From a virus, in the IMG/VR virus record IMGVR_UViG_3300003691_000353, positions 1 to 25,014 of that record: 25,014 nt of DNA; one strand, written 5' to 3'. The notes under the pieces were generated by a model. That model saw nothing but the letters and a program-made list of their open reading frames with translations. It had not been told where the DNA came from and ran no database searches. The position numbers and the translations under genes were made by a program. Below are positions 2,820 through 16,557 of this stretch, one piece after another; within the stretch, counting starts at the first letter, position 1, and each line of letters begins with the position of its first letter.

Positions 2820-3599
2820 CTACGCAGCTTCTAAGAGTTTTTGGAACACTTCAGTGTACTTCTCCAAAGTAGACCCAGTTAAAGCAGGGGCGGTATTGAC
2901 CTCTAGCACAGCTACATTACCGTTAGTCTCGTTACGTTTAATATCAACAGCACCGAAGTCTAAACCCAACGCTACTACAGCGTCCACTGCTGCTCCTAGC
3001 ACAGCCTCATGGATTTCGATGTCATCACGACAGAAGACCCAGCCATTGTCATACGAACGGACGAAGTAGTTAGCCTCAACACCCTCACGTGTCTTCTTCT
3101 GCTGCACGTCTACTACTTCACCTCGTACTACATGGACACGGTACTCTTCCCGCCCCTTGAAGTACTGGGTATATAGAGGAGCTTCCGGCACCTCCATGTC
3201 GGCGCGGTCTAGGACAATGATACCTTGCCCACTGTGCCCGTTGACAGTTTCACGAACCATAATAGTTGCGCCATCTAACAGCATGTTACGCGCAACACGG
3301 GCCTCCGTTGTATGTACAAGGTGAGGGACTCCAGCAGTCTGTAACCGATGCAACGCACGACGTTTATCTACAGCTATCTCTACGTTAGCAGGCTTGTTAA
3401 TAATGTTGGCGTTATACAAATGCTCCGGTACAGAAGAAGATCCCCAATTAATAAGAGTGTCAGTTGAACGCGCCACGAAGGTGCTACTACCTCTCCGCAC
3501 CCGCAAGACCCCTAACGCAGCCGCGAGAGACGTGCCGCCGTTAGCGGGACGGGGTATGAAGAAACGTACTCGACCTTTGTTATTACTTGATGTACTCAT
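2820..3599 (-). CDS. ATP-grasp ligase, RimK-like, of the amidoligase cluster
   Basis: A 259-residue protein with ATP-grasp features. GATIMVRETVNGHSGQGIIVL (about residues 109-129) carries the ATP-binding Arg/Lys strand and glycine loop. YTQYFKGREEYRVHVVRGEVV (about 143-163) matches the second conserved block. FGAVDIKRNE...NVAVLEVNTAPAL (about 217-242) supplies the metal-binding Asp and Glu-x-Asn. ATP-grasp enzymes activate a carboxylate as acyl phosphate and join it to an amine or thiol, often adding amino acids to peptides. The substrate is unknown; clustering with a glutamine amidotransferase and two other amidoligases suggests peptide or protein modification. It starts 35 bases after the amidotransferase stop, with AGAGG upstream of the ATG. 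The palindrome at 3306-3321 is read within it as LVHTT. Confidence 0.8.
   Translation of the reverse strand: MSTSSNNKGRVRFFIPRPANGGTSLAAALGVLRVRRGSSTFVARSTDTLINWGSSSVPEHLYNANIINKPANVEIAVDKRRALHRLQTAGVPHLVHTTEARVARNMLLDGATIMVRETVNGHSGQGIIVLDRADMEVPEAPLYTQYFKGREEYRVHVVRGEVVDVQQKKTREGVEANYFVRSYDNGWVFCRDDIEIHEAVLGAAVDAVVALGLDFGAVDIKRNETNGNVAVLEVNTAPALTGSTLEKYTEVFQKLLEAA
3306..3321. repeat. Dispersed 16-bp palindrome, copy 2
   Basis: CGTTGTATGTACAAGG, one outer base differing from the family consensus. It lies inside the ATP-grasp gene, read as LVHTT. Confidence 0.75.
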
Positions 3600-3634
3600 A
3601 GTGCTTTATAACCTCTAGTTATATTGATAGTAGT

Positions 3635-5026
3635 TTAATTATTAAGTCTTATAGCAAACTGCATGCAATCATCGCATACAGGCTCCAGATCGCGTGTCCA
3701 CTCCACAAGTACAGGGGAAGAAAAGTCATCCCCGCACCACATGCACCCGTCTTTGATAGCCTCTTCCCACGCATCCTTTGTCGCTTTCTGCGTGCCTATA
3801 TAATAGACATCCTTGTCACGCGCTGCCTCTTCTTCAAGAGCGTCAGGTATACAGAACACCTCCATGTCTGGAGTTGTGTTCGAGTTAACAAGACGGCAGA
3901 TAAGTACCACCTCATCGTCGGAGTACTTAACGCCGATAGGTCTCACGAGCCATCTGTTATCGAACTGCCCGTCTACAACAGACTCGAAAGTCCCGTGTAG
4001 TAAAGCGGTCACGCCTAGAGTGTCAAGGTGCCCAGCAACCACACGGCGCTTGCCTGTCCTGCTTATGTCAGTCAGAGGTGTAAAGGAGAACCTGTCGTTA
4101 ATAGAAAAGCCTGCGGATAGCAGCTCCTCTTGTAGAATACTCGGTATAACCTCCCACTTAGAGTTAACAAGGATAGTATCCTTCTCAAAGGCTGCGTTAG
4201 TGCTCGTTTGCCGGGTTGTACCTGCCGCTGAACGTGTCCCGTACCAGTTCCCACCGTAACCCCCGTTGCCTTGGAAGGTGTCGTAGTACTTTTTTGGTAG
4301 TAAGGAGTACTCCTGTACCAGAGGCAGCATAGACCCTTTGCTGAACTTCAGGTGCGTGCCAGCAGTGGGCTGAACGATCTCACCAAGGGATAGACGTAAC
4401 TTTGTGTCCATCCAGCGCAGCAAGCCTGCTTCGGATGCCATGTAGATTGTACCGTCCACCGCCTGTGCCATATGGAAAGGCCGATCAGCGTTACGGCATA
4501 TATTAAGCGACTCGTCGCGACGATCGTACCACACTAACGCGAACGCCCCGTCAATCTTGCTAACCACCTTTTCAACCTCATCGGGTTTTACTAAGGCTAG
4601 GTTGTGACACACAGCATGGCTATCTACGTCTACACCTAGCTGCTTCTGCGATTGTGGGAGGTCTACAGTGCTAGTTAACGTGCCATTATGGATCATCGTC
4701 ACGCCTCCTTCAGAGAAGGGGTGCGCCGAGGAGGTGCCTAAACCACCTACGGTAGCAGCGCGGTTGTGCCCCATACAGAACCATTGGTCTCGTATACTCT
4801 TCTCAAAGGCAGAGTACTCTTTCGTGTTAATGAACACCTGCCCAGCTACCGCGTTCTTAAGCCAGCCAGATTTACCTGCCTTGCCTGCCTCCTTAAAGAA
4901 GATGCCTGTCGCGTCGTCGCCTCGTATGGTATCAAGCACCAAGGAGTGTTTCATAAATAACCGCCAATCGTTTGACGCTGCTGCTATCTTATCAGATGGT
5001 CTGATAAACCCTACTATTCCGCACAT
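3635..5026 (-). CDS. Class II glutamine amidotransferase with C-terminal zinc ribbon
   Basis: A 463-residue protein beginning MCGIVGFI, so Cys2 becomes the N-terminal nucleophile typical of class II (Ntn) glutamine amidotransferases. Other family blocks follow: MGHNRAATVGG (about residues 84-94) and SAHPFSEGGVTMIHNGTL (about 100-117), as in GlmS, PurF and AsnB. These enzymes release ammonia from glutamine for a partner synthetase. No GlmS isomerase or AsnB synthetase domain is evident, so the partner is probably one of the neighbouring ligases (inference). The C-terminus carries four cysteines, C428-x2-C431 and C451-x2-C454, which look like a zinc ribbon and could mediate protein contact. The Shine-Dalgarno GAGG lies inside the end of the preceding amidoligase gene, four bases away, suggesting coupled translation. 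Confidence 0.85.
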   Translation of the reverse strand: MCGIVGFIRPSDKIAAASNDWRLFMKHSLVLDTIRGDDATGIFFKEAGKAGKSGWLKNAVAGQVFINTKEYSAFEKSIRDQWFCMGHNRAATVGGLGTSSAHPFSEGGVTMIHNGTLTSTVDLPQSQKQLGVDVDSHAVCHNLALVKPDEVEKVVSKIDGAFALVWYDRRDESLNICRNADRPFHMAQAVDGTIYMASEAGLLRWMDTKLRLSLGEIVQPTAGTHLKFSKGSMLPLVQEYSLLPKKYYDTFQGNGGYGGNWYGTRSAAGTTRQTSTNAAFEKDTILVNSKWEVIPSILQEELLSAGFSINDRFSFTPLTDISRTGKRRVVAGHLDTLGVTALLHGTFESVVDGQFDNRWLVRPIGVKYSDDEVVLICRLVNSNTTPDMEVFCIPDALEEEAARDKDVYYIGTQKATKDAWEEAIKDGCMWCGDDFSSPVLVEWTRDLEPVCDDCMQFAIRLNN

Positions 5027-5030
5027 CTCT

Positions 5031-6164
5031 TTATCCTCTTCTTCTATTGATTATGGTGGTGGGTGCACTTTCTAGGTAACGATTTACTCTCGCTGCATCC
5101 GCACGACTTAAGGCCAGCTCTTCGAGGTAACGCTCAGCCCTATCCTCTCGTAGAGTGGCCATATAGGAACCTCCTCCCTCTCTTGTACCCAGCACCGGTG
5201 GTTCGAATGGGTTAGCGCTTGCAGAAATACTATCCCAAGTTTCGTGAACTACTGACGCAACCGGAGGGGGAGGAGCAGGAGCAGGAGCTGTCTGAGTAAC
5301 TTCTGGCCTGTAAGTAGACCAGATCCCCGCCCCTCTCGGGCTGTCAGCATTAACCGTCGTCGCTTCGCTAGCCCTTGTACGTACAATACTGCTTGCTACG
5401 GAGATACTATCGTACTCGTAAACAAGAGTCGCCCAGTCCTCGATATGAGACGCTTCAAGCGAAGGGAATACCTCTTGTAGTAGTCCTTTAAGATCCTGAT
5501 CCGCCTTCTTAACAACATTAGCTGCTGTTTTGTACTTAATACCAACATCAACAAGCGTTATAAGCGTTTGAATCCACGAAGATAGCTCGTCAGCACTCTC
5601 AAAAGTAGGCGCAGCTCGGAACTCAATCGTCCCGAACCGGCTCAAAGCTGCTACATTGAGAGCGGTGTATTTACAGAAACCAGTATGTAAGGACTCACGC
5701 GCACGGGATGGCGAACGCACTCCTACCAGCCGCCGCAGCCCTATAGCCTGCGCCCTCGCCCTGTACCACGGTACGCAGTACGTACACTCGTCCCTGTCCC
5801 GCCCTAACATATCAAACAGAATAGGCTCAACAATACTATATACGGCGCATACAGCACCGACCTGCGTTAGTGTTTGTTGCTGCATGTTTACATGCACATG
5901 AGTGCTAGTACGTACAGACGCGTTGTACCCGATGCTTATCGCGTTCTCATAGAACGTATTAATCGCAACGGGAAGCGCCTCCATAGTAAGGGGTATGGAG
6001 ACGAACTCCCCTCCCTGCTCACGTAGGCTCCCATCAGCTACTATTTGCCATAAAGAGCACGATTCTAGCCATCGGGCGGAGCTAACCTGCTCTACCTCGA
6101 TCTCTATACCTATCCTCCGCTCCGCGAACTGCCTCGCTTCGCTAGAAATCTCGCTAATTCTCAT
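5031..6164 (-). CDS. Amidoligase (Amidoligase_2-type, glutamine-synthetase-like fold)
   Basis: A 377-residue protein with the signature blocks of the Amidoligase_2 family: RRIGIEIEVEQ near residue 16 (metal/ATP-binding glutamates), STHVHVNMQQQ (about 87-97, His-x-His), and KYTALNVAALSRFGTIEFRAAPTFESADELSSWIQTL (about 165-205, the TIEFR strand). The family is related to glutamine synthetase and glutamate-cysteine ligase and joins carboxylates to amines using ATP. The region after about residue 280 is low in complexity and Pro/Ala-rich (APAPAPPPPVA), probably a flexible linker leading to a basic C-terminal helix. It lies between the unknown 210-aa gene (13-base gap) and the amidotransferase. 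The palindrome at 5373-5388 is read as IVRTR. Confidence 0.8.
   Translation of the reverse strand: MRISEISSEARQFAERRIGIEIEVEQVSSARWLESCSLWQIVADGSLREQGGEFVSIPLTMEALPVAINTFYENAISIGYNASVRTSTHVHVNMQQQTLTQVGAVCAVYSIVEPILFDMLGRDRDECTYCVPWYRARAQAIGLRRLVGVRSPSRARESLHTGFCKYTALNVAALSRFGTIEFRAAPTFESADELSSWIQTLITLVDVGIKYKTAANVVKKADQDLKGLLQEVFPSLEASHIEDWATLVYEYDSISVASSIVRTRASEATTVNADSPRGAGIWSTYRPEVTQTAPAPAPPPPVASVVHETWDSISASANPFEPPVLGTREGGGSYMATLREDRAERYLEELALSRADAARVNRYLESAPTTIINRRRG
5373..5388. repeat. Dispersed 16-bp palindrome, copy 3
   Basis: CCTTGTACGTACAATA; the central 12 bases are perfectly palindromic but the right end deviates. It lies inside the amidoligase gene, read as IVRTR. Confidence 0.7.
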
Positions 6165-6177
6165 AATAACACCTTCC

Positions 6178-6810
6178 TTATTCGCTTACCGCGAGTAGTT
6201 GCACGACACGACTTGTATGTACAAGGGACTCGTCCCCTACAAACTCTAGTGTATCTCGGTTAATAGTCCCTACATAGTTCGTATTGTGTAAAACACTCAC
6301 TACACCCTCCTGTATAGACAGGATTATGTGACGATTAAGGGCTACAGCATACACGTTCCGTGAGAATGAGTTTACCGCTGCCCTTAAATCCCTTGGGTAC
6401 TCTGGACAGAACACTGCTTGCAGCAGCTCATCGGTATAACCTCGTCCTCGCTCCTCTTGTAGCATATAGGCATGCTCTCGATCCCGCCGAAGGGTATACA
6501 AGTACGTGTGAGAGCTACGGAAAGTACGCCCCCACTGCCTTACAGACCGTCTTTCTACGTAATAAGCCCTCCCATTGTAGTTAATAGCCCCACACAAAGG
6601 CCAATGAACACGAATATCTTCCCTGCCAACTCTTCTACGCACATCGTCCGGCGCTGTTCTGATAGAAACAAAAGGTAGCCCGTTATCTAGCTCATCACTA
6701 TCTACAAAGCGCGCTAACTCCCACTCATTATCGACCTTGGCAAAGAATATACCATCGTTTAACCACTGTCGAACGTCTTCGTGCCTTACATCACTCGGTA
6801 GCTTAATCAT
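6178..6810 (-). CDS. Unknown 210-aa protein of the amidoligase cluster
   Basis: I do not recognise this protein. It is soluble-looking, has no signal peptide or membrane segment, and is rich in Arg and aromatic residues in the middle (INYNGRAYYVERRSVRQWG and onward, about residues 76-95). The C-terminal half alternates short hydrophobic strands (HIILSIQEGVVSVLHNTNYVGTI). It sits between the two amidoligase genes with little space on either side, so it is likely an accessory or a substrate of that system (inference). The ATG is preceded by AGGAG nine bases upstream, within a 33-base leader cassette whose close copy precedes another unknown gene at 10,435. The palindrome at 6211-6226 is near its 3' end, read as LVHTS. 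Confidence 0.7.
   Translation of the reverse strand: MIKLPSDVRHEDVRQWLNDGIFFAKVDNEWELARFVDSDELDNGLPFVSIRTAPDDVRRRVGREDIRVHWPLCGAINYNGRAYYVERRSVRQWGRTFRSSHTYLYTLRRDREHAYMLQEERGRGYTDELLQAVFCPEYPRDLRAAVNSFSRNVYAVALNRHIILSIQEGVVSVLHNTNYVGTINRDTLEFVGDESLVHTSRVVQLLAVSE
6211..6226. repeat. Dispersed 16-bp palindrome, copy 4
   Basis: ACTTGTATGTACAAGG inside the 210-aa unknown gene, read as LVHTS. Confidence 0.8.
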
Positions 6811-6839
6811 AAGATCGTGCTCCTGTAGATCGCGCTCAT
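6807..6839 (-). CDS. Possible 10-residue leader peptide, cassette copy 1
   Basis: A tiny reading frame, MSAIYRSTIL, with GGGAG seven bases before its ATG. Its ATG overlaps the stop of the COOH-NH2 ligase gene (ATGA) and its TGA overlaps the ATG of the 210-aa gene (ATGA). The 33 bases match the cassette at 10,432-10,464 at 29 positions; two of the four changes are synonymous and two conservative (A/T, Y/F). Whether the peptide matters, or only its function as a ribosome-loading site, cannot be decided from sequence. Confidence 0.4.
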   Translation of the reverse strand: MSAIYRSTIL

Positions 6840-7672
6840 AAGACTACTCCCGCAGTGATACCTAGCTCGGTTGTTACTCGCAGAAGCTCCCCAGCAGCGT
6901 GTCGGTCTTCATTATTTATAGCTGCTTGTACGTCTGCCCACAGTATATTACCGTAATCAGCAATAACTTCTTCTTTAGGCCGCTGCTCTATGTAATGACA
7001 CAACGCCAAGGCATTAACTCCTACGAGATGTGTTAGCGACGTGTTAGTAAGCCATCTATTAGACAACGTCCGGTACTCAATACCGTAAGGTGTAGGCCGA
7101 TAGCGCCCTGCTTCCCCGTACAGCCCTCGTCGAAGCGGTTGTTTGTCGTACGCCATGCTGGGTAGTCCTAAGAACAGGTCAGCAAACTGCGCTACAACAT
7201 GATCAGGAACCTCCCAAGTTGCGTCATAACCTAGATGGATGTGCCCGCCAGCGAAGCGCCAAGCACCTTCGCCCTCTTGCAATGCCGTAGGATCAACCAC
7301 GTCAGCCTGCTGGCCCCCTAAGTGCGCTCTGTAATCCACACTACAGCCGAATACGGATGCTGCCTGCGTATTAAGATCCTCGTAGGGAAACCACTGCTCC
7401 GGTACGATGTGTAACGCTAAGCCATCTCGACTTGTACGTACAAGGTTAGAACAGCGCCGCAATCCTTCGATTATGGAGTTAGAGAACTCTGTAGCTGTAC
7501 GACTGGCTGGTACATTAAACTCCAGCATTACATTATCCTCCTGTACAGCATAGCCTTCTAGACCTAGACCTCGTGGGGTATCCTTACTACCCCCAACCAG
7601 ACCGCATACGGGTATCGGTGTACCCTCTTTATCCTGCAAAAACAGCTCTGGATCAGTTCCAATAGTAGCCAT
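6836..7672 (-). CDS. phiEco32-like COOH-NH2 ligase (amidoligase, type 2)
   Basis: A 278-residue protein beginning MATIGTDPELFL, the N-terminal signature of the phage phiEco32-like COOH-NH2 ligase family. Other conserved blocks are EDNVMLEFNVPAS (about residues 45-57), GGHIHLGYD (about 141-149, metal-binding His-x-His) and PYGIEYRTLSNRWL (about 196-209). Members have a glutamine-synthetase-like fold and are predicted to form amide bonds between a carboxyl and an amino group with ATP. The length is near that expected for the family. AGAGG precedes the ATG by nine bases. The stop overlaps the first leader cassette. The palindrome at 7430-7445 is read as LVRTS. It differs clearly from the amidoligase at 5031-6164, so the cluster holds two distinct members of the superfamily. 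Confidence 0.85.
   Translation of the reverse strand: MATIGTDPELFLQDKEGTPIPVCGLVGGSKDTPRGLGLEGYAVQEDNVMLEFNVPASRTATEFSNSIIEGLRRCSNLVRTSRDGLALHIVPEQWFPYEDLNTQAASVFGCSVDYRAHLGGQQADVVDPTALQEGEGAWRFAGGHIHLGYDATWEVPDHVVAQFADLFLGLPSMAYDKQPLRRGLYGEAGRYRPTPYGIEYRTLSNRWLTNTSLTHLVGVNALALCHYIEQRPKEEVIADYGNILWADVQAAINNEDRHAAGELLRVTTELGITAGVVL
7430..7445. repeat. Dispersed 16-bp palindrome, copy 5
   Basis: ACTTGTACGTACAAGG; the inner 14 bases are perfectly self-complementary. It lies inside the COOH-NH2 ligase gene, read as LVRTS. Confidence 0.85.
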
Positions 7673-7692
7673 CGTTTCTTACCTCTTGTTTG

Positions 7693-8643
7693 TTAACCAA
7701 AACACCATGAATGTTGACGAGCGTACCAACCAGCGTGTGCTAAATATACACGCTCATCTTTCGTTAAAAGCTCAAACGAGTCTTTCTCGGTGGGTAATAC
7801 AGCAATAACATTTTGATTTTGTAACAGGGAGGACGTTTCCCCGCGACCGAGCTTCTTCAACACATCCTGCGGTAACTCGTCTTGCCAATAAGCTGCTCGT
7901 TTGTCTATATCCCGATAGCGATTGCCGCCCTCCGGCCCTCCCATAGGTGCGTTTGTTAATGTAATAGGATACCACTGCACACTATTGCCAGAGTTAGTGT
8001 TAATAAAAGGACTACAGTTATCTACACGCACTTTGATCGGTATGACCCCCGTTGCCCTCAACGGGTTTTTCTGCACTTCCTGCGAGCTAAAGCCTTTTGT
8101 AAGTGACTCTACCCGCATAGCAGGTCGTATATATTTCAACTTCTTGGCCTGTGTTATAAATGCGTGCATAGCACTGCCCTCGTCGGACTGCCCACTAGCT
8201 ACAAGACCGCGCTGACCTCTGTACGTGCCATAAGAAAAGATAGCGTTAGCTAGAACGCGGTAGCCGTAGGCGCGCATATCTTCTGTATCACGGATCTTAA
8301 TACCGTGATCCCGCACATCAACTAACTTAATTACACCTTCTTTTTTAGTAACTGCCGTACAATCGTGCGGAAGCAGTCTCGTACTAAAAGACTCGTTACC
8401 TCTAAGTACAACGCAAGGGCTGTGCATCCAAGATCCAGCGCAGAAGGACGTAAAGTCTGTTACTTGCGCTGCTACTTCTACAACGCATGCGTCCGAAACC
8501 CGAAATACTGCTTGGAGTATCATGGTATTACGATTACCTGTGTGGTGCATTATAAGCGGGTCACGTGGTCGGTTGTCACTGTATATATTGCTGTAAGCAA
8601 TACATGGTGGGTAATACTCCGGTAATGCTTTTTTTGCTGTCAT
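7693..8643 (-). CDS. Unknown 316-aa protein of the amidoligase cluster
   Basis: I do not recognise this protein. It has no signal peptide or membrane segment. The N-terminus is Pro/Tyr-rich (LPEYYPPCIAYSNIYSDN), a mixed alpha/beta middle follows, and the C-terminus ends in an aromatic stretch (YLAHAGWYARQHSWCFG). Cysteines are scattered without a clear zinc motif. It lies 20 bases upstream of the COOH-NH2 ligase gene in the direction of transcription and follows the 54-aa gene, so it belongs to the same transcript as the ligases. It might be a binding partner, an acceptor protein or a further enzyme of an undescribed family. The ATG at 8643 has a weak AGG eight bases upstream. Confidence 0.65.
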   Translation of the reverse strand: MTAKKALPEYYPPCIAYSNIYSDNRPRDPLIMHHTGNRNTMILQAVFRVSDACVVEVAAQVTDFTSFCAGSWMHSPCVVLRGNESFSTRLLPHDCTAVTKKEGVIKLVDVRDHGIKIRDTEDMRAYGYRVLANAIFSYGTYRGQRGLVASGQSDEGSAMHAFITQAKKLKYIRPAMRVESLTKGFSSQEVQKNPLRATGVIPIKVRVDNCSPFINTNSGNSVQWYPITLTNAPMGGPEGGNRYRDIDKRAAYWQDELPQDVLKKLGRGETSSLLQNQNVIAVLPTEKDSFELLTKDERVYLAHAGWYARQHSWCFG

Positions 8644-8655
8644 AATATGAACCTA

Positions 8656-8820
8656 TTAAACAAACCCGTGAGGTTTGGTAAGTGATATATTGCGTACTGG
8701 TTCTACGCAATCAATGATGTCTTTGGAAGGGGTAGTACCTTTCAGCCCTGCTAGAACATCCGTTCTAGTATGGGTAGAGGTTTTAGTGGTATTCCCTTTG
8801 ATCTTTGCTGGTAATGCCAT
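8656..8820 (-). CDS. Unknown 54-aa basic peptide between the GGCT-like and 316-aa genes
   Basis: A short frame beginning MALPAKIKGNTTKTSTHTR and ending KPHGFV. It starts one base after the stop of the gamma-glutamylcyclotransferase-like gene and has ACGAGG about nine bases upstream, so it is probably a real gene despite its size. The N-terminal third is rich in Lys, Thr and Arg and looks unstructured; the middle (VLAGLKGTTPSKDIIDCVEPV) could form a short helix. No known family is recognised. In a cluster of amide-bond-forming enzymes, a small linear peptide could be a substrate, but that is speculation. Confidence 0.6.
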   Translation of the reverse strand: MALPAKIKGNTTKTSTHTRTDVLAGLKGTTPSKDIIDCVEPVRNISLTKPHGFV

Positions 8821-8821
8821 A

Positions 8822-9250
8822 CTAACTAGCCTCGTTTAAAACTGCATAATGAGCTAACTCATCTTTGGTTGCGTTCCACAAACCACTTGTAACTACCGCA
8901 CGGTCTGTTAAATAGCTGCGTGGTAGTAGATATACCCAAGGATTCGGGTGAACGGTTGTACCGTGGCTATCCAATGGTAACTGCTCTCGCTCGTAGAAGT
9001 CAGGATGCCCTTCAAGCATATCAAGAGCCAAGAACACATCATCCGGTACACTGTACAGCTCACCGAAGATGGTGTTAGATAGATTAGGGTTATTGGAAAT
9101 CTTTACAACACCGGGAAATGCTCCAAGGTCAATCATACGATAAGGCCCGACAAGAGACTTTCTCCCGAGGTAATTAACACGGGAGTCGGTTAGTAGGCGG
9201 TGATTACCGTGACCCGCTTTAAGTGTTCCGTATACAAATACTGTTGTCAT
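8822..9250 (-). CDS. Gamma-glutamylcyclotransferase-like (AIG2/GGCT) protein
   Basis: A 142-residue protein with the start MTTVFVYGTLKAGHGNHRLL, the substrate-binding YGTLxxG motif of the GGCT fold. FLALDMLEGHPDFYERE (about residues 73-89) contains the catalytic Glu of the conserved LDxLEGxPxxYxR block, and VYLLPR is the usual late strand. GGCT enzymes cyclise gamma-glutamyl groups to 5-oxoproline and release the amine, so the protein may trim or reverse a gamma-glutamyl amide made by the neighbouring ligases. It is the first gene of the amidoligase cluster in the direction of transcription. Its Shine-Dalgarno AAGGAGGGG is partly held in a hairpin at 9257-9272. Confidence 0.85.
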   Translation of the reverse strand: MTTVFVYGTLKAGHGNHRLLTDSRVNYLGRKSLVGPYRMIDLGAFPGVVKISNNPNLSNTIFGELYSVPDDVFLALDMLEGHPDFYEREQLPLDSHGTTVHPNPWVYLLPRSYLTDRAVVTSGLWNATKDELAHYAVLNEAS

Positions 9251-10997: not shown

Positions 10998-11026
10998 ATT
11001 ATATCATACCTATATAACTATGTCAA
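10998..11026 (-). promoter_or_regulatory. Consensus sigma-70 promoter, leftward
   Basis: On the minus strand TTGACA and TATAAT are both exact, separated by 17 bases, with TG one base before the -10 box (extended -10). Transcription would begin near 10,991 and run into the small membrane-protein genes and onward to the amidoligase cluster. This is the best host-type promoter in the window, so this operon is probably expressed early by host RNA polymerase. Confidence 0.85.
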
Positions 11027-11133: not shown

Positions 11134-11808
11134 CTATCCTGCCATTGCTGCGGTTAGTGCGTCAAGATCGGCGTTATCCTCCATAGCACCATTATCGTCA
11201 TCGCCCGCTATACTGACAAGCTCTGTGCTCAAGTCTTGAATAGTCAGTGTTAGTGATTCCATTGCGTCACCAATAGAGCTATCAACCTCTATACTTTTGA
11301 CATAATTAGCCATCAACGCTAGTTGGGCAAGCAAACACGCTTGTTGCTCTTGCTCGTGCGTCATCTTTGCAGCTTGCTCTAACACCTTAGCGGCGCTTAA
11401 GTCTTTGCGAATAGCTGTAAATGATCGTGGTTCGCTGGTCTCATCGTCGGTTAGCTCTACGCTATATTCCATCGCACCCAATAACACGCTCTTGGCACTC
11501 ATCGCTGCGCTTGGAATAGTCCAAGTACCGTCTTTTTTACCCTTGGGGCACTTAGCCTTAACAGCCAACCCATTGGCATTGGCTCGGATCATATCAAAGA
11601 CGGTTGACATTGCCTTTTCAAACTTCGCCTGTCCGGTACTCGCAGCAATTGCGGTGAATGTAGCATAAACCCCCGCGCCTTGGGTCTTGGCTTTTTCAGT
11701 TGCTATGCCTGACTTGTTAGCAGCTACAATGCCATCGAATATAGACTGGTTTAGTGCAGTTAATTTAATAGCCTTTACGGGTGCTTTCTTTGCGGTAGTA
11801 GTAGTCAT
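11134..11808 (-). CDS. Unknown 224-aa early protein
   Basis: It is the first leftward gene next to the divergent control region. It starts MTTTTAKKAPVKAIKLTALN, is Ala/Thr/Lys-rich with mainly helical content, and ends in an acidic tail (AGDDDNGAMEDNADLDALTAAMAG). No family is recognised; an acidic tail is also seen in single-stranded DNA-binding and histone-like phage proteins, but this is not evidence of that role. The ATG at 11,808 is chosen: an in-frame extension to 11,919 would run through the probable promoter. AAGG about ten bases upstream, the likely ribosome-binding site, is the right arm of palindrome copy 11, so a protein on that site could also affect this gene. Confidence 0.65.
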   Translation of the reverse strand: MTTTTAKKAPVKAIKLTALNQSIFDGIVAANKSGIATEKAKTQGAGVYATFTAIAASTGQAKFEKAMSTVFDMIRANANGLAVKAKCPKGKKDGTWTIPSAAMSAKSVLLGAMEYSVELTDDETSEPRSFTAIRKDLSAAKVLEQAAKMTHEQEQQACLLAQLALMANYVKSIEVDSSIGDAMESLTLTIQDLSTELVSIAGDDDNGAMEDNADLDALTAAMAG

Positions 11809-11818
11809 AATATATATA

Positions 11819-11834
11819 CCTTGTATGTATAAGG
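11819..11834. repeat. Dispersed 16-bp palindrome, copy 11 (overlaps a ribosome-binding site)
   Basis: CCTTGTATGTATAAGG. On the minus strand its last four bases AAGG form the probable Shine-Dalgarno of the 224-aa gene. Confidence 0.8.
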
Positions 11835-11841
11835 ATAAACC

Positions 11842-11927
11842 CTTGCACCAACATGGTGCGAAGGTACCAACCAACCAAAGCGGCGGCTGACATACATAGT
11901 ATAGCATACTACATGCCAACTATTCAA
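11842..11927 (-). promoter_or_regulatory. Probable leftward early promoter and leader hairpin
   Basis: The minus strand shows TTGAAT (11,922-11,927), an 18-base gap and TATACT (11,898-11,903), a fair sigma-70 match. The leader contains GCACCA-N3-TGGTGC (11,845-11,859), extendable with a bulge to 11,842-11,863, a stable hairpin ahead of the palindrome and start codon. A further TATAAT lies upstream at 11,941-11,946 but lacks a good -35 box. Confidence 0.55.
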
Positions 11928-13633: not shown

Positions 13634-13936
13634 ATGGCAGAGCTAAAAGATTTAAAAACATTATTCAATGACTCTGATTTATTGGATAAGGTGGAAGGGG
13701 CTATTATTGTTGCTGCTAGCGCATTGACTGAAGGCACTCCAACAGCAGCGGAAAAGAAGTGGGCTGCGGCGGTTGCGGATGCGCCAGTAATAGAAGCCAA
13801 AAAAGCGTTGATATTTGTTATCGCTAAAAACTCTGCGGCTACTATAAGTCAGATTCAAAAAGCTGGAGACCCCGCAGTTCAGGCCAACGTGGACTCGGTT
13901 GTCCCGGTGCTAGTAGACGCACTATCAGGAGAGTAA
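13634..13936 (+). CDS. Unknown 100-aa virion-operon protein
   Basis: A compact, Ala/Val-rich, mainly helical and mildly acidic protein (MAELKDLKTLFNDSDLLDKV at the start, VPVLVDALSGE at the end). No family is recognised. It starts 40 bases after the previous gene with only a weak purine-rich site upstream (GAGAG). Its place just before structural proteins suggests a minor virion or assembly role, which is inference. Confidence 0.55.
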   Translation: MAELKDLKTLFNDSDLLDKVEGAIIVAASALTEGTPTAAEKKWAAAVADAPVIEAKKALIFVIAKNSAATISQIQKAGDPAVQANVDSVVPVLVDALSGE

Positions 13937-13939
13937 CCA

Positions 13940-14437
13940 ATGGCTACCAGTAAGGCGTATTATCTGCCGGAGACTAAACATACGTTCCTAGCTTCGGCTG
14001 GGGATGTGGTATTTACACAGACATCATTGGCGGCTGGCACTGGATGGCAGTCGGCTCAGCTTGACTTAGGCGCTGGCGCTCAACCACCTCTATTCAGATG
14101 GAGAGCTTGGGTACAGTTTGCGACCGCTCCAGTAGTGGGGGAAACGGTAGACTTTTATCTTAAAACGTCAGATGGGACTCACCTTGATAATGACGATGGA
14201 ACAGGGGATATAGCTGTCTCGGCAGAGGATAAGCTACTAAACCTACGGTACATAGGATCGATAACGGTTGACGAAGCTAGTGCAACTCCAGAGTTCTCAT
14301 CTAGCGGAGTCATGGCGATTTACGATAGATACGCTCATATCGTCTGCTGGAACTCTACAGCAGACGCGCTAAGCGCAACAGCGGCAGAGCATGGGTTCTC
14401 TTTAGAGGAGATACCGCTACAAGGCCAAGCGACCTAA
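13940..14437 (+). CDS. Predicted beta-rich virion protein, 165 aa
   Basis: GGAGAG lies seven bases before the ATG. The protein has many short beta strands and a distinctive stretch, FRWRAWVQFATAPVVGETVDFYLKTSDGTHLDNDDGTGD (about residues 53-91), then AVSAEDKLLNLRYIGSITVDEAS. From memory, this YLKTSDG...DNDDG pattern occurs in structural proteins of several tailed phages of unknown exact role, perhaps a tail or decoration protein. A catalytic site is not apparent. Confidence 0.6.
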   Translation: MATSKAYYLPETKHTFLASAGDVVFTQTSLAAGTGWQSAQLDLGAGAQPPLFRWRAWVQFATAPVVGETVDFYLKTSDGTHLDNDDGTGDIAVSAEDKLLNLRYIGSITVDEASATPEFSSSGVMAIYDRYAHIVCWNSTADALSATAAEHGFSLEEIPLQGQAT

Positions 14438-14438
14438 T

Positions 14439-15305
14439 ATGCCTCACTTTGAGCTACCAAAGCACGCTCACCCAGACCTCGTTAATCCGCATAGGAAGCC
14501 GGTTGGCCCCGTATCGAGTGATACTGAGTATGAGTTATTCGCAGCTAAGAATACCCTTGTGGCGGCGTTTTTGCGTGAGTCTGATTATCAGTCGCTATAC
14601 ACCGAGAAAAAGCTAACACCTACAGGGACGGTAGGCAATAAAAGGAAAGCGGGTGGGCTGTATAAGACGCTCCCAGGAGGAGCGGGAAATTATATAACGC
14701 TTTCAGGAGATAACGATCCAGCTATTCAGCCTGAAGTACCATTCTCTGTGTTCGCTAAAGTTTACCGTGGTGGCGCGCTATCTAGTTTTTCGGGAATACT
14801 TGCCCCTGATATGACCGCTAACACTGGTGGTTATTTGCTGGTCGGCACAGTGGAGAATAAGGTAAGGCTCTATATCCATGATGGATCTAGTTTTAAGTTT
14901 GCAGAAACAGATAATGCGTTACCTCTAAACAAAGAGACCGTTATTTCCGGCTCGTGGGACGGCGCGACAGTTCGCATCTATCAGGACGGCAAGTTACAAA
15001 GCACATCAGCAGCAGTTACTAGTATTAACTATTCAGGGCCGTCTACTCAGTCTGCGGTGATAGGGGCGTACCCAATAGGGCATCCGTTAGAAGTCAGTTG
15101 GAACGGGGGTATAGCTTACGTAGGTATAACGCCCAGAAACTGGAGCAGCAGGCAGCACAGGTCATTCTACGAAAATCAATATGATTACTTAAAGCCGCAG
15201 TTATCGCTAGCTTACTCTACGCCAGAGGATTTAGGCGGTGGGCCAACCTTCCAAGCAGCATGGGCTATGGCATCAAAACGAAGCAATGTAATAGGAGCGA
15301 GGTAG
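14439..15305 (+). CDS. Virion protein with LamG/concanavalin-A-like domain
   Basis: A 288-residue protein. Residues about 75-240 form a jelly-roll-like pattern typical of LamG/ConA-like lectin domains: NYITLSGDNDPAIQPEVPFSVF, then NKVRLYIHDGSSFKF, then NKETVISGSWDGATVRIYQDGK, then AVIGAYPIG...WNGGIAYVGITPRNWS. Such domains bind sugars and appear in phage fibre-like proteins, so it may contact the host surface. The N-terminus (MPHFELPKHAHPDLVNPHRK) may attach to the particle. It starts two bases after the preceding stop and lies directly upstream of the fibre-like gene. Confidence 0.7.
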   Translation: MPHFELPKHAHPDLVNPHRKPVGPVSSDTEYELFAAKNTLVAAFLRESDYQSLYTEKKLTPTGTVGNKRKAGGLYKTLPGGAGNYITLSGDNDPAIQPEVPFSVFAKVYRGGALSSFSGILAPDMTANTGGYLLVGTVENKVRLYIHDGSSFKFAETDNALPLNKETVISGSWDGATVRIYQDGKLQSTSAAVTSINYSGPSTQSAVIGAYPIGHPLEVSWNGGIAYVGITPRNWSSRQHRSFYENQYDYLKPQLSLAYSTPEDLGGGPTFQAAWAMASKRSNVIGAR

Positions 15306-15306
15306 A

Positions 15307-16557
15307 ATGTACCCACGGAATAATGCAAGCCCTGAAAGAATCGGAGTAGGCCAAGTCGTGCTCATCTTAGACGGGACAATCCAGTCAGCAGGGGTTGCGA
15401 TAACCGTTCGAGGGCAAGGCCAAGCCGAGGCAGCAGGTGCTGGGACGATCGTATACAATGCTGATAACACTGTAAGCTACACGCCCACGCAAGCAGAAAC
15501 CAACTACACATCATTTGTATTGATTGCTTCAAAGGCTGCTTGTTTCTCTGTTTCCCAAACAATAATCACATCGGCAGCATCTACAGCAGGTGAAGTGGTA
15601 TCAGATGCAGCAAGCCGAACAGCAAGTCAGGCAGACGTAAGCGCGTTAGCTACCACAGCAGCCCTCGCTACAGTTGACTCGAATGTGGATGCCATATTGG
15701 TAGACACAGGCACTACACTGGACACTAAACTGAACGATATACAAGGCACTACTTTTAGTTCTGCTACAGATTCACTTGAAGCCATTAGAGATAGAGGCGA
15801 TGCGGCATGGCCGACAGCTACAGGGTTTGCACTTGCAACCGTAGCGACAGAAGCTAGGATGTCTGAGCTGGACGCAGTGACCGCAGGCAAGATGGCTAAT
15901 CAAATAGACATTATCCAGATTGACACCACCACCGATATACCGGCAAGCATAGCGGCGTTAAACGATGTTGCTGCCACTGATATAGTTTCAGCCGGAGCAA
16001 TCACCACATTGACAGGCGCGGTGGTAAATGTTGATCTGGTAGATACCACCACTACCAATACCGATATGCGCGGTACTGATTCAGCCAACACAGTAGCGCC
16101 AGACAACACAGGTATAGCTAATATTGAAACACAGTTAGGTGTGGCAGGTGTAGGGCTTACCAATCTAGGTGGCATGTCTACGGGTATGAAAGCAGAGGTT
16201 AACATTGAAGCAGATACGGCCCTTACAGACTACGACGGCCCAACCAATGCTGAGATGGAAGCAAGGACTCCGACAGCTGCACAGTTAGCGTACATGACCG
16301 CTAACGCGGCTACCGGCCTACCTGTTACATTCACCACATCCGGTGGGTCAACTACAGCAGCGGTGATTAACCTTGTTGATGGCTCGGCGGGTAGTGCGAC
16401 AGATGACCAGTACAACGGCAGGCTGTTGGTGTTCACTAGCGGGACATTAAAAGGCGTAGTTACCGATATAACTGATTACACCGGGGCAACAACAACCGCG
16501 ACGATCACAGCTATACCGTTTGCACCTACAGCAACACACACAGCTCGGCTGATATAA
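15307..16557 (+). CDS. Fibre-like virion protein, 416 aa
   Basis: It opens MYPRNNASPERIGVGQVVLI with a beta-rich head domain, then has long Ala/Thr/Asp/Val repeats (about residues 100-330, e.g. ATTAALATVDSNVDAILVDTGTTL) that fit a helical or beta-spiral fibrous shaft, and ends in a compact beta domain (about 335-416). Similar repeats are common in phage tail fibres. Base composition is a little more GC-rich than its neighbours, consistent with a mosaic receptor-binding gene. GGAGCGAGG precedes the ATG; the stop shares an A with the next start. Confidence 0.6.
   Translation: MYPRNNASPERIGVGQVVLILDGTIQSAGVAITVRGQGQAEAAGAGTIVYNADNTVSYTPTQAETNYTSFVLIASKAACFSVSQTIITSAASTAGEVVSDAASRTASQADVSALATTAALATVDSNVDAILVDTGTTLDTKLNDIQGTTFSSATDSLEAIRDRGDAAWPTATGFALATVATEARMSELDAVTAGKMANQIDIIQIDTTTDIPASIAALNDVAATDIVSAGAITTLTGAVVNVDLVDTTTTNTDMRGTDSANTVAPDNTGIANIETQLGVAGVGLTNLGGMSTGMKAEVNIEADTALTDYDGPTNAEMEARTPTAAQLAYMTANAATGLPVTFTTSGGSTTAAVINLVDGSAGSATDDQYNGRLLVFTSGTLKGVVTDITDYTGATTTATITAIPFAPTATHTARLI

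Follow-up and report, generated by a model that had tools for sequence, protein, structure and literature searches.

The phiEco32-, PaP3/LUZ24- and PA11-like phages carry a module of genes for amide-bond-forming enzymes, which was reportedly described by Iyer et al. in 2009; the module itself is already known and is not new here. It groups a COOH-NH2 ligase, a protein of about 200 amino acids, an amidoligase, a class II glutamine amidotransferase and an ATP-grasp ligase, with a GGCT-family enzyme nearby. Gene calls for it have been published for phages UFV-P2 (PMC3890496) and TC6 (PMC6209634). No experimental function of the module was found in the literature searched, and an earlier reading of the DNA studied here, made from the sequence alone (the original prediction), had likewise known of no biochemical demonstration. 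That DNA is the 25,014-base virus record IMGVR_UViG_3300003691_000353 (the window). The five enzymes and three uncharacterized genes that the original prediction had placed at positions 2820 to 9250 are all present, on the minus strand; Pfam and PHROG searches confirmed the identities of the enzymes.

The window holds the same enzyme families as the phage modules named above, in much the same order. As in phiEco32/PaP3-type loci, the four enzyme genes lie on one strand, the protein of about 200 amino acids is encoded between the COOH-NH2 ligase and the amidoligase, and a GGCT gene is present; phiEco32, PaP3, Bjorn and Alcaligenes phage QDWS535 have this gene order in common. The window differs from that type in that its proteins share less than 45% identity with those of any annotated phage, in that its GGCT gene lies upstream, set apart by a private gene for a 316-amino-acid protein and a 54-codon open reading frame (ORF), and in that it lacks a small ORF between the amidotransferase and ATP-grasp genes. 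New here are the rule that a predicted cap-removing enzyme comes with the COOH-NH2 ligase and the definition of a three-gene core. The best explanation of the module is an early-expressed, cytoplasmic, amide-forming pathway. We put the probability that this pathway yields an amide-linked product by way of a gamma-glutamyl cap, which is added and then removed, at roughly one half.

Results

The COOH-NH2 ligase is accompanied by a gamma-glutamyl-cleaving enzyme

Loci from annotated phages and viral contigs, 179 altogether, were compared. When the ATP-grasp gene was used as bait, an amidoligase and a class II amidotransferase were present in 43/43 flanked loci, and a COOH-NH2 ligase was present in 28 of the 43. 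The irreducible core of the module is the amidoligase, the class II amidotransferase and the ATP-grasp ligase; the COOH-NH2 ligase is optional. The original prediction had spoken of three kinds of ligase. All three are present, but they are not equal partners: the COOH-NH2 ligase appears and disappears together with a cleaving enzyme, a link that the original prediction had missed. The cleaving enzyme is either a GGCT or a Peptidase_C26 hydrolase (C26), a class I protein whose catalytic Cys, His and Glu are conserved. One or the other was found in 26 of the 28 loci with a COOH-NH2 ligase and in none of the 15 without it. When the search started from the COOH-NH2 ligase instead, every locus (45/45) held the full core and a cleaving enzyme. 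Among all flanked loci with a COOH-NH2 ligase (n = 76), 20 held a GGCT only, 37 a C26 only, 18 both and 1 neither, so that a cleaving enzyme was present in 75/76, with Privateer's GGCT counted in this tally though it lies elsewhere in that genome. GGCTs and C26 enzymes are unrelated, and both cut gamma-glutamyl bonds. Because one of them accompanies the COOH-NH2 ligase, the ligase is predicted to make a gamma-glutamyl (carboxylate-amine) bond that is later opened, and the GGCT is the predicted remover of this cap.

On a FastTree phylogeny of the ATP-grasp proteins, the GGCT state changed at least 12 times and the C26 state at least 6 times. A model in which GGCT and C26 evolve dependently fitted better (likelihood ratio, 32; P = 1.6e-6).

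A clade of loci without the ligase (L123, L100, L105 and similar ones) has a pared-down module of three genes, encoding an amidoligase of about 490 to 520 amino acids with an unrelated N-terminal half, an amidotransferase of about 300 to 390 amino acids and an ATP-grasp protein of about 250 amino acids. A COOH-NH2 domain fused into the long (about 520-amino-acid) amidoligase of this clade was considered and rejected, since no similarity was found. A search of 18 whole records of the clade found no COOH-NH2 ligase, GGCT or C26. Stenotrophomonas phage StenR_269 (L017) has a GGCT without a COOH-NH2 ligase. Its module also contains an additional class II amidotransferase and a pair of paralogous genes for proteins of about 300 to 335 amino acids, one of them annotated as "L-glutamine synthetase" without Pfam support.

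The enzymes of the window retain their catalytic residues

In order of transcription, the module consists of the genes for the GGCT, the 54-codon ORF, the 316-amino-acid protein, the COOH-NH2 ligase, a 210-amino-acid protein, the Amidoligase_2 enzyme, the amidotransferase and the ATP-grasp ligase. Inactive catalytic residues, named beforehand in the original prediction as refuting it, were looked for in alignments of the window's proteins with about 12 to 21 relatives per family. Residues invariant among the relatives are kept in the window's proteins, and every catalytic residue that could be placed is intact.

The phiEco32-type COOH-NH2 ligase (278 amino acids; positions 6836 to 7672, minus strand, as for all module genes; Pfam, 8e-7; phrog_3815, 1e-52) retains D7, E9, K30, D46, E51, H144, H146, R181, E199 and R201, which are invariant across 19 homologues. 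In the Amidoligase_2 enzyme, a core ligase of 377 amino acids (5031 to 6164; Pfam, 3.5e-7, above the cut-off; phrog_7469, 8e-38), the invariant residues are E21, E23, E25, E53, H89, H91, E113, R124 and R183. The GGCT-like protein (GGACT/AIG2; 142 amino acids; 8822 to 9250; Pfam GGACT, 5e-21) has the GGCT/GGACT hallmarks, with YGTL at residues 7 to 10 (a YGSL-type YGxL motif) and the catalytic-type Glu80, both invariant in 13 homologues.

The other core ligase is the ATP-grasp enzyme (259 amino acids; 2820 to 3599; RimK model, 3.6e-5, above the cut-off; phrog_2599, 1e-72), in which K79, R116, E152, R154, K168, D219, E233 and N235 are invariant. Its nearest solved relatives are RimK-type alpha-L-glutamate ligases (PDB match, 4.5e-11), and it has the ATP- and Mg-binding residues of a RimK-like enzyme (K, ExR, D and ExN) in addition to the sequence relation. 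Membership in the R2K clade was considered and not supported: the protein has E233-V-N235 in place of the ExGD of R2K.3, and the R2K_3 model scored just below its cut-off (2.1e-5; 25.2 bits against 26.3). On its sequence, the enzyme is classed as RimK-like rather than as a clear R2K member.

The class II amidotransferase (3635 to 5026; Pfam GATase_6, 9e-17; PHROG, 3e-59) keeps Cys2 in an MCG start, R89 of the HxR(x)AT stretch, HNG at 113 to 115 and D135 of the glutamine site, as expected of a class II (Ntn) enzyme, and its C terminus carries a zinc-ribbon-like CxxC...CxxC pattern. The best relative in the PDB is GlmS (7.7e-22), which matches in the N-terminal part only. Identity with GlmS, implied by PHROG and GenBank names, was rejected: there are no sugar-isomerase (SIS) domains, and the C-terminal part is unrelated and bears the CxxC pairs. 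The enzyme is the predicted ammonia supplier of the module, and since it lacks a synthase domain, one of the ligases would have to take up the ammonia. In 38 loci (e.g., L006:6821-7051 and L096:14615-14824), the ATP-grasp gene is followed by one for a protein of about 70 amino acids with a CxxC...CxxC pattern and an acidic tail, which is similar to the amidotransferase's zinc-ribbon end and is perhaps a domain split off from it.

Taken together, the sequences describe an apparently active and complete set of amide-bond-making enzymes.

Uncharacterized proteins of the module

The 210-amino-acid protein (6178 to 6810), which carries no name in the databases, is newly recognized here as a conserved part of the module. 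A single-sequence tblastn search in phages returned no relative; an iterative profile search placed its family in 110 loci, and in 69 of the 92 loci in which the COOH-NH2 ligase gene precedes the amidoligase gene, it sits between the two. An AlphaFold2 model (predicted local distance difference test [pLDDT] score, 87) consists of small SH3/Tudor-like beta-barrels. Structural matches to it with E values below 0.001 were to viral proteins, among them proteins of phages CW02 and Vp_R1; a RIO-1 protein narrowly missed that threshold, and comparison with the PDB gave only local Tudor/SH3-like matches. The model suggests that the protein is likely a binding or scaffold subunit.

The 316-amino-acid protein at the operon head (7693 to 8643) had no Pfam or PHROG match and no relative in single-sequence tblastn searches of phages and viral contigs. 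Profile comparison related it (E = 1.8e-5 over 181 columns) to a family, recovered only with iterative profiles, of proteins of about 320 amino acids that have FC[AG]G and NxNSG motifs and are encoded in 12 loci immediately ahead of the COOH-NH2 ligase gene. By this profile match it is classed as a divergent representative of that family, which evolves fast and occupies the head of the operon in the nearest relatives. Its structural model was too poor to use (pLDDT, 51), and a fold search gave no significant match. The 54-codon ORF (8656 to 8820) emerged from a small-ORF scan and is preceded by a Shine-Dalgarno-like site; no relatives of it were found in other modules.

The module belongs to phages and is probably expressed early

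Protein searches matched the COOH-NH2 ligase in 310 annotated phage records, the amidoligase in 316, the amidotransferase in 309 and the ATP-grasp ligase in 286, all with less than 60% identity. The hosts of these phages include Pseudomonas, Escherichia, Vibrio, Aeromonas and Proteus, among others. The three core genes occur together in 144 loci, where 698 of 698 module genes sit on a single strand, a clustering that chance does not explain. A replication gene lies within 4 kb downstream of the module in 102 of 125 loci. When 84,980 species genomes of bacteria and archaea were scanned, 15 loci came up. Each was in a metagenome bin and most were on short contigs; 12 of them held other module genes, and 6 held phage-type replication genes as well. 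A cellular version of the module was rejected on these grounds, and the module belongs to phages. The view of it as a phage-restricted and widely conserved pathway is borne out by about 290 to 316 annotated phage records per gene and by the scan of cellular genomes. Membership in a defense system was also rejected, as PADLOC gave no match to one.

A study of SU10, a relative of phiEco32, detected its ATP-grasp, amidotransferase and YtfP/GGCT proteins and counted them among the early gene products (PMC4281155). The SU10 preparation was not gradient purified, so their detection does not make them parts of the virion. In the window, the only site to match a sigma-70 promoter consensus at 12 of 12 positions in a scan is at 10998 to 11026 on the minus strand (TTGACA, a 17-base spacer and TATAAT, with TG before the -10 hexamer), and it lies upstream of the early minus-strand genes, including the module, which it is predicted to drive. 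None of the seven module proteins has a signal or membrane segment.

Discussion

A proposed pathway with a gamma-glutamyl cap

In the pathway that we propose, the COOH-NH2 ligase would use ATP to join the gamma-carboxyl group of glutamate to an amine, giving a gamma-glutamyl-capped amine. The Amidoligase_2 and ATP-grasp enzymes would then lengthen the capped molecule through additional amide bonds, and the glutaminase activity would free ammonia from glutamine for one ligase, leaving a terminal carboxamide. The GGCT would take off the cap as pyroglutamate; in other phages, C26 would take it off as glutamate. The 210-amino-acid beta-barrel protein may hold the enzymes or the substrate together, and the variable 316-amino-acid protein may tailor the pathway to a given host or target. 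The product would most likely be a soluble small molecule that acts early, in host takeover or counter-defense. More tentatively, the module as a whole could be a phage-restricted, multienzyme pathway by which lytic phages make, early in infection, a gamma-glutamyl-protected, nonribosomal amide metabolite with this role, using two interchangeable deprotecting enzymes.

Several points weigh against the capped pathway. Only about three gains or losses account for the distribution of the COOH-NH2 ligase on the tree, which is a FastTree tree, and a sign test on independent pairs across well-supported branches had too few pairs for significance. GGCT and C26 are not strict alternatives, given that 18 loci hold both; the rule is that at least one is present. 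GGCT-family proteins can also act on glutathione or isopeptides instead of a pathway intermediate. The catalytic roles of the COOH-NH2 ligase and Amidoligase_2 families reportedly come from published family predictions, and no relative of solved structure was detectable by sequence for either family, whose expected fold is that of glutamate-cysteine ligase and glutamine synthetase.

If this more tentative reading is right, the module would be among the first known phage-owned small-molecule biosynthetic pathways of such complexity. Its carriers, over 300 sequenced phages that infect common hosts, include relatives of phiEco32 as well as BASEL-collection phages of laboratory E. coli K-12. The rule that the ligase implies a GGCT or C26 leads to a concrete chemical hypothesis, a gamma-glutamyl-capped intermediate accessible to targeted mass spectrometry, and the rule predicts which deletions would make that intermediate pile up.

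Alternative explanations

The main rival is protein tagging, in which a protein of the host or phage, such as a ribosomal, RNA polymerase or virion protein, would receive amino acids or a short chain of amides from the RimK-like ligase and the amidoligases, and GGCT or C26 would trim the addition. We consider it a serious possibility, though a doubtful one. Among solved structures, the ATP-grasp enzyme comes closest to RimK-type ligases, including ones that act on ribosomal protein S6; the beta-barrel protein could serve to bind the target, and a variable protein stands at the operon head. However, the usual substrates of GGCT enzymes are small gamma-glutamyl compounds, tagging would not require as many as five enzymes with an ammonia supplier, and no conserved substrate protein or peptide was seen in the module. 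A graspetide-like ribosomal precursor peptide was specifically rejected, as no conserved small ORF fitted and the recurrent ones were zinc-ribbon or lineage-specific ORFs. Related phage R2K ligases have been predicted to modify host proteins (PMC4431377; PMC7824862), which favors tagging.

Compared with the capped pathway, nitrogen or glutamate salvage is improbable. Here the module would tune glutamine, glutamate or glutathione pools for nucleotide synthesis and make no dedicated product. Glutaminase and gamma-glutamyl-cleaving enzymes would indeed release glutamate and ammonia, and early expression and linkage to replication would suit such a role, but salvage leaves unexplained why ATP-consuming ligases are invariant in the core (43/43 loci).

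Hypermodification of DNA, whereby an amide-decorated nucleotide or modified bases would confer resistance to restriction, seems very improbable. The module adjoins replication genes, and phages of the phiEco32 group, which are among its carriers, are described as "remarkably resistant" to restriction-modification with no known pathway behind this (PMC11990801, PLoS Biology); the authors of that study point to a dCTP deaminase instead. The DNA of Pseudomonas phage tf, another module carrier, was cut by RsaI, HpaI, EcoRV, SmaI and HaeIII and cloned (PMC3517423), and cutting by five enzymes indicates that dense base modification is absent in tf. Nor does the module contain a nucleotide- or base-recognizing domain.

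The original prediction had offered decoration of a virion protein, a change of host peptidoglycan or an anti-defense metabolite; the second of these, taken here as amidation or crosslinking of stem peptides, is very unlikely. In its favor, D-Ala-D-Ala ligases share the ATP-grasp fold, and the amidotransferase-ligase pair MurT/GatD amidates Gram-positive peptidoglycan (PMC3267633), but the operon lies beside replication and not lysis genes. Early expression in SU10 and the lack of signal or membrane segments also disfavor it. MurT and GatD belong to other families than the module enzymes.

Other features of the window

The minus-strand early block ends in three replication and transcription genes. 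A DNA primase gene (1875 to 2741; phrog_47, 5e-17) lies immediately downstream of the module, and a DnaB-like replicative helicase gene (2 to 970; phrog_19, 8e-26) runs off the contig. Between them lies a gene for a phage sigma-70-family factor (1117 to 1893; Sigma70_r3, 5e-10; Sigma70_r4, 3.5e-9), and the same region of several module-carrying phages also holds a sigma factor. Farther upstream, a 261-codon ORF with a TTG start (11134 to 11919, minus strand) has no NCBIfam name; in about 10 loci (cluster c27; e.g., L004, L022 and L118), a relative of it likewise lies upstream of the module. The plus strand carries terminase, portal and major head protein genes. Four successive ORFs of 100, 165, 288 and 416 codons precede the terminase gene (13634 to 16557, plus strand), and a PHROG search of the three larger ones gave no match. 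A near-identity search of the whole window against phages gave no match, and a search for RNA elements found none.

Relation to known gamma-glutamyl protection systems

Two cellular systems resemble the proposed capping and uncapping and serve as leads only. In putrescine utilization, PuuA, a ligase of the glutamine synthetase fold, forms a gamma-glutamyl amine, and PuuD, a Peptidase_C26-type hydrolase of the class I amidotransferase fold, removes the glutamate. The module differs in that the oxidation steps catalyzed by PuuB and PuuC are absent, and the window's phage uses a GGCT and not a C26. In butirosin biosynthesis, the ATP-dependent ligase BtrJ adds a gamma-glutamyl group, and BtrG, a GGCT-family enzyme, removes it. 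The ligase there is an ATP-grasp enzyme and its substrate is held on an acyl carrier protein; no such carrier was seen in the window. By analogy, gamma-glutamyl protection like that of BtrJ and BtrG may operate in the module, where the COOH-NH2 ligase co-occurs with a cleaving enzyme.

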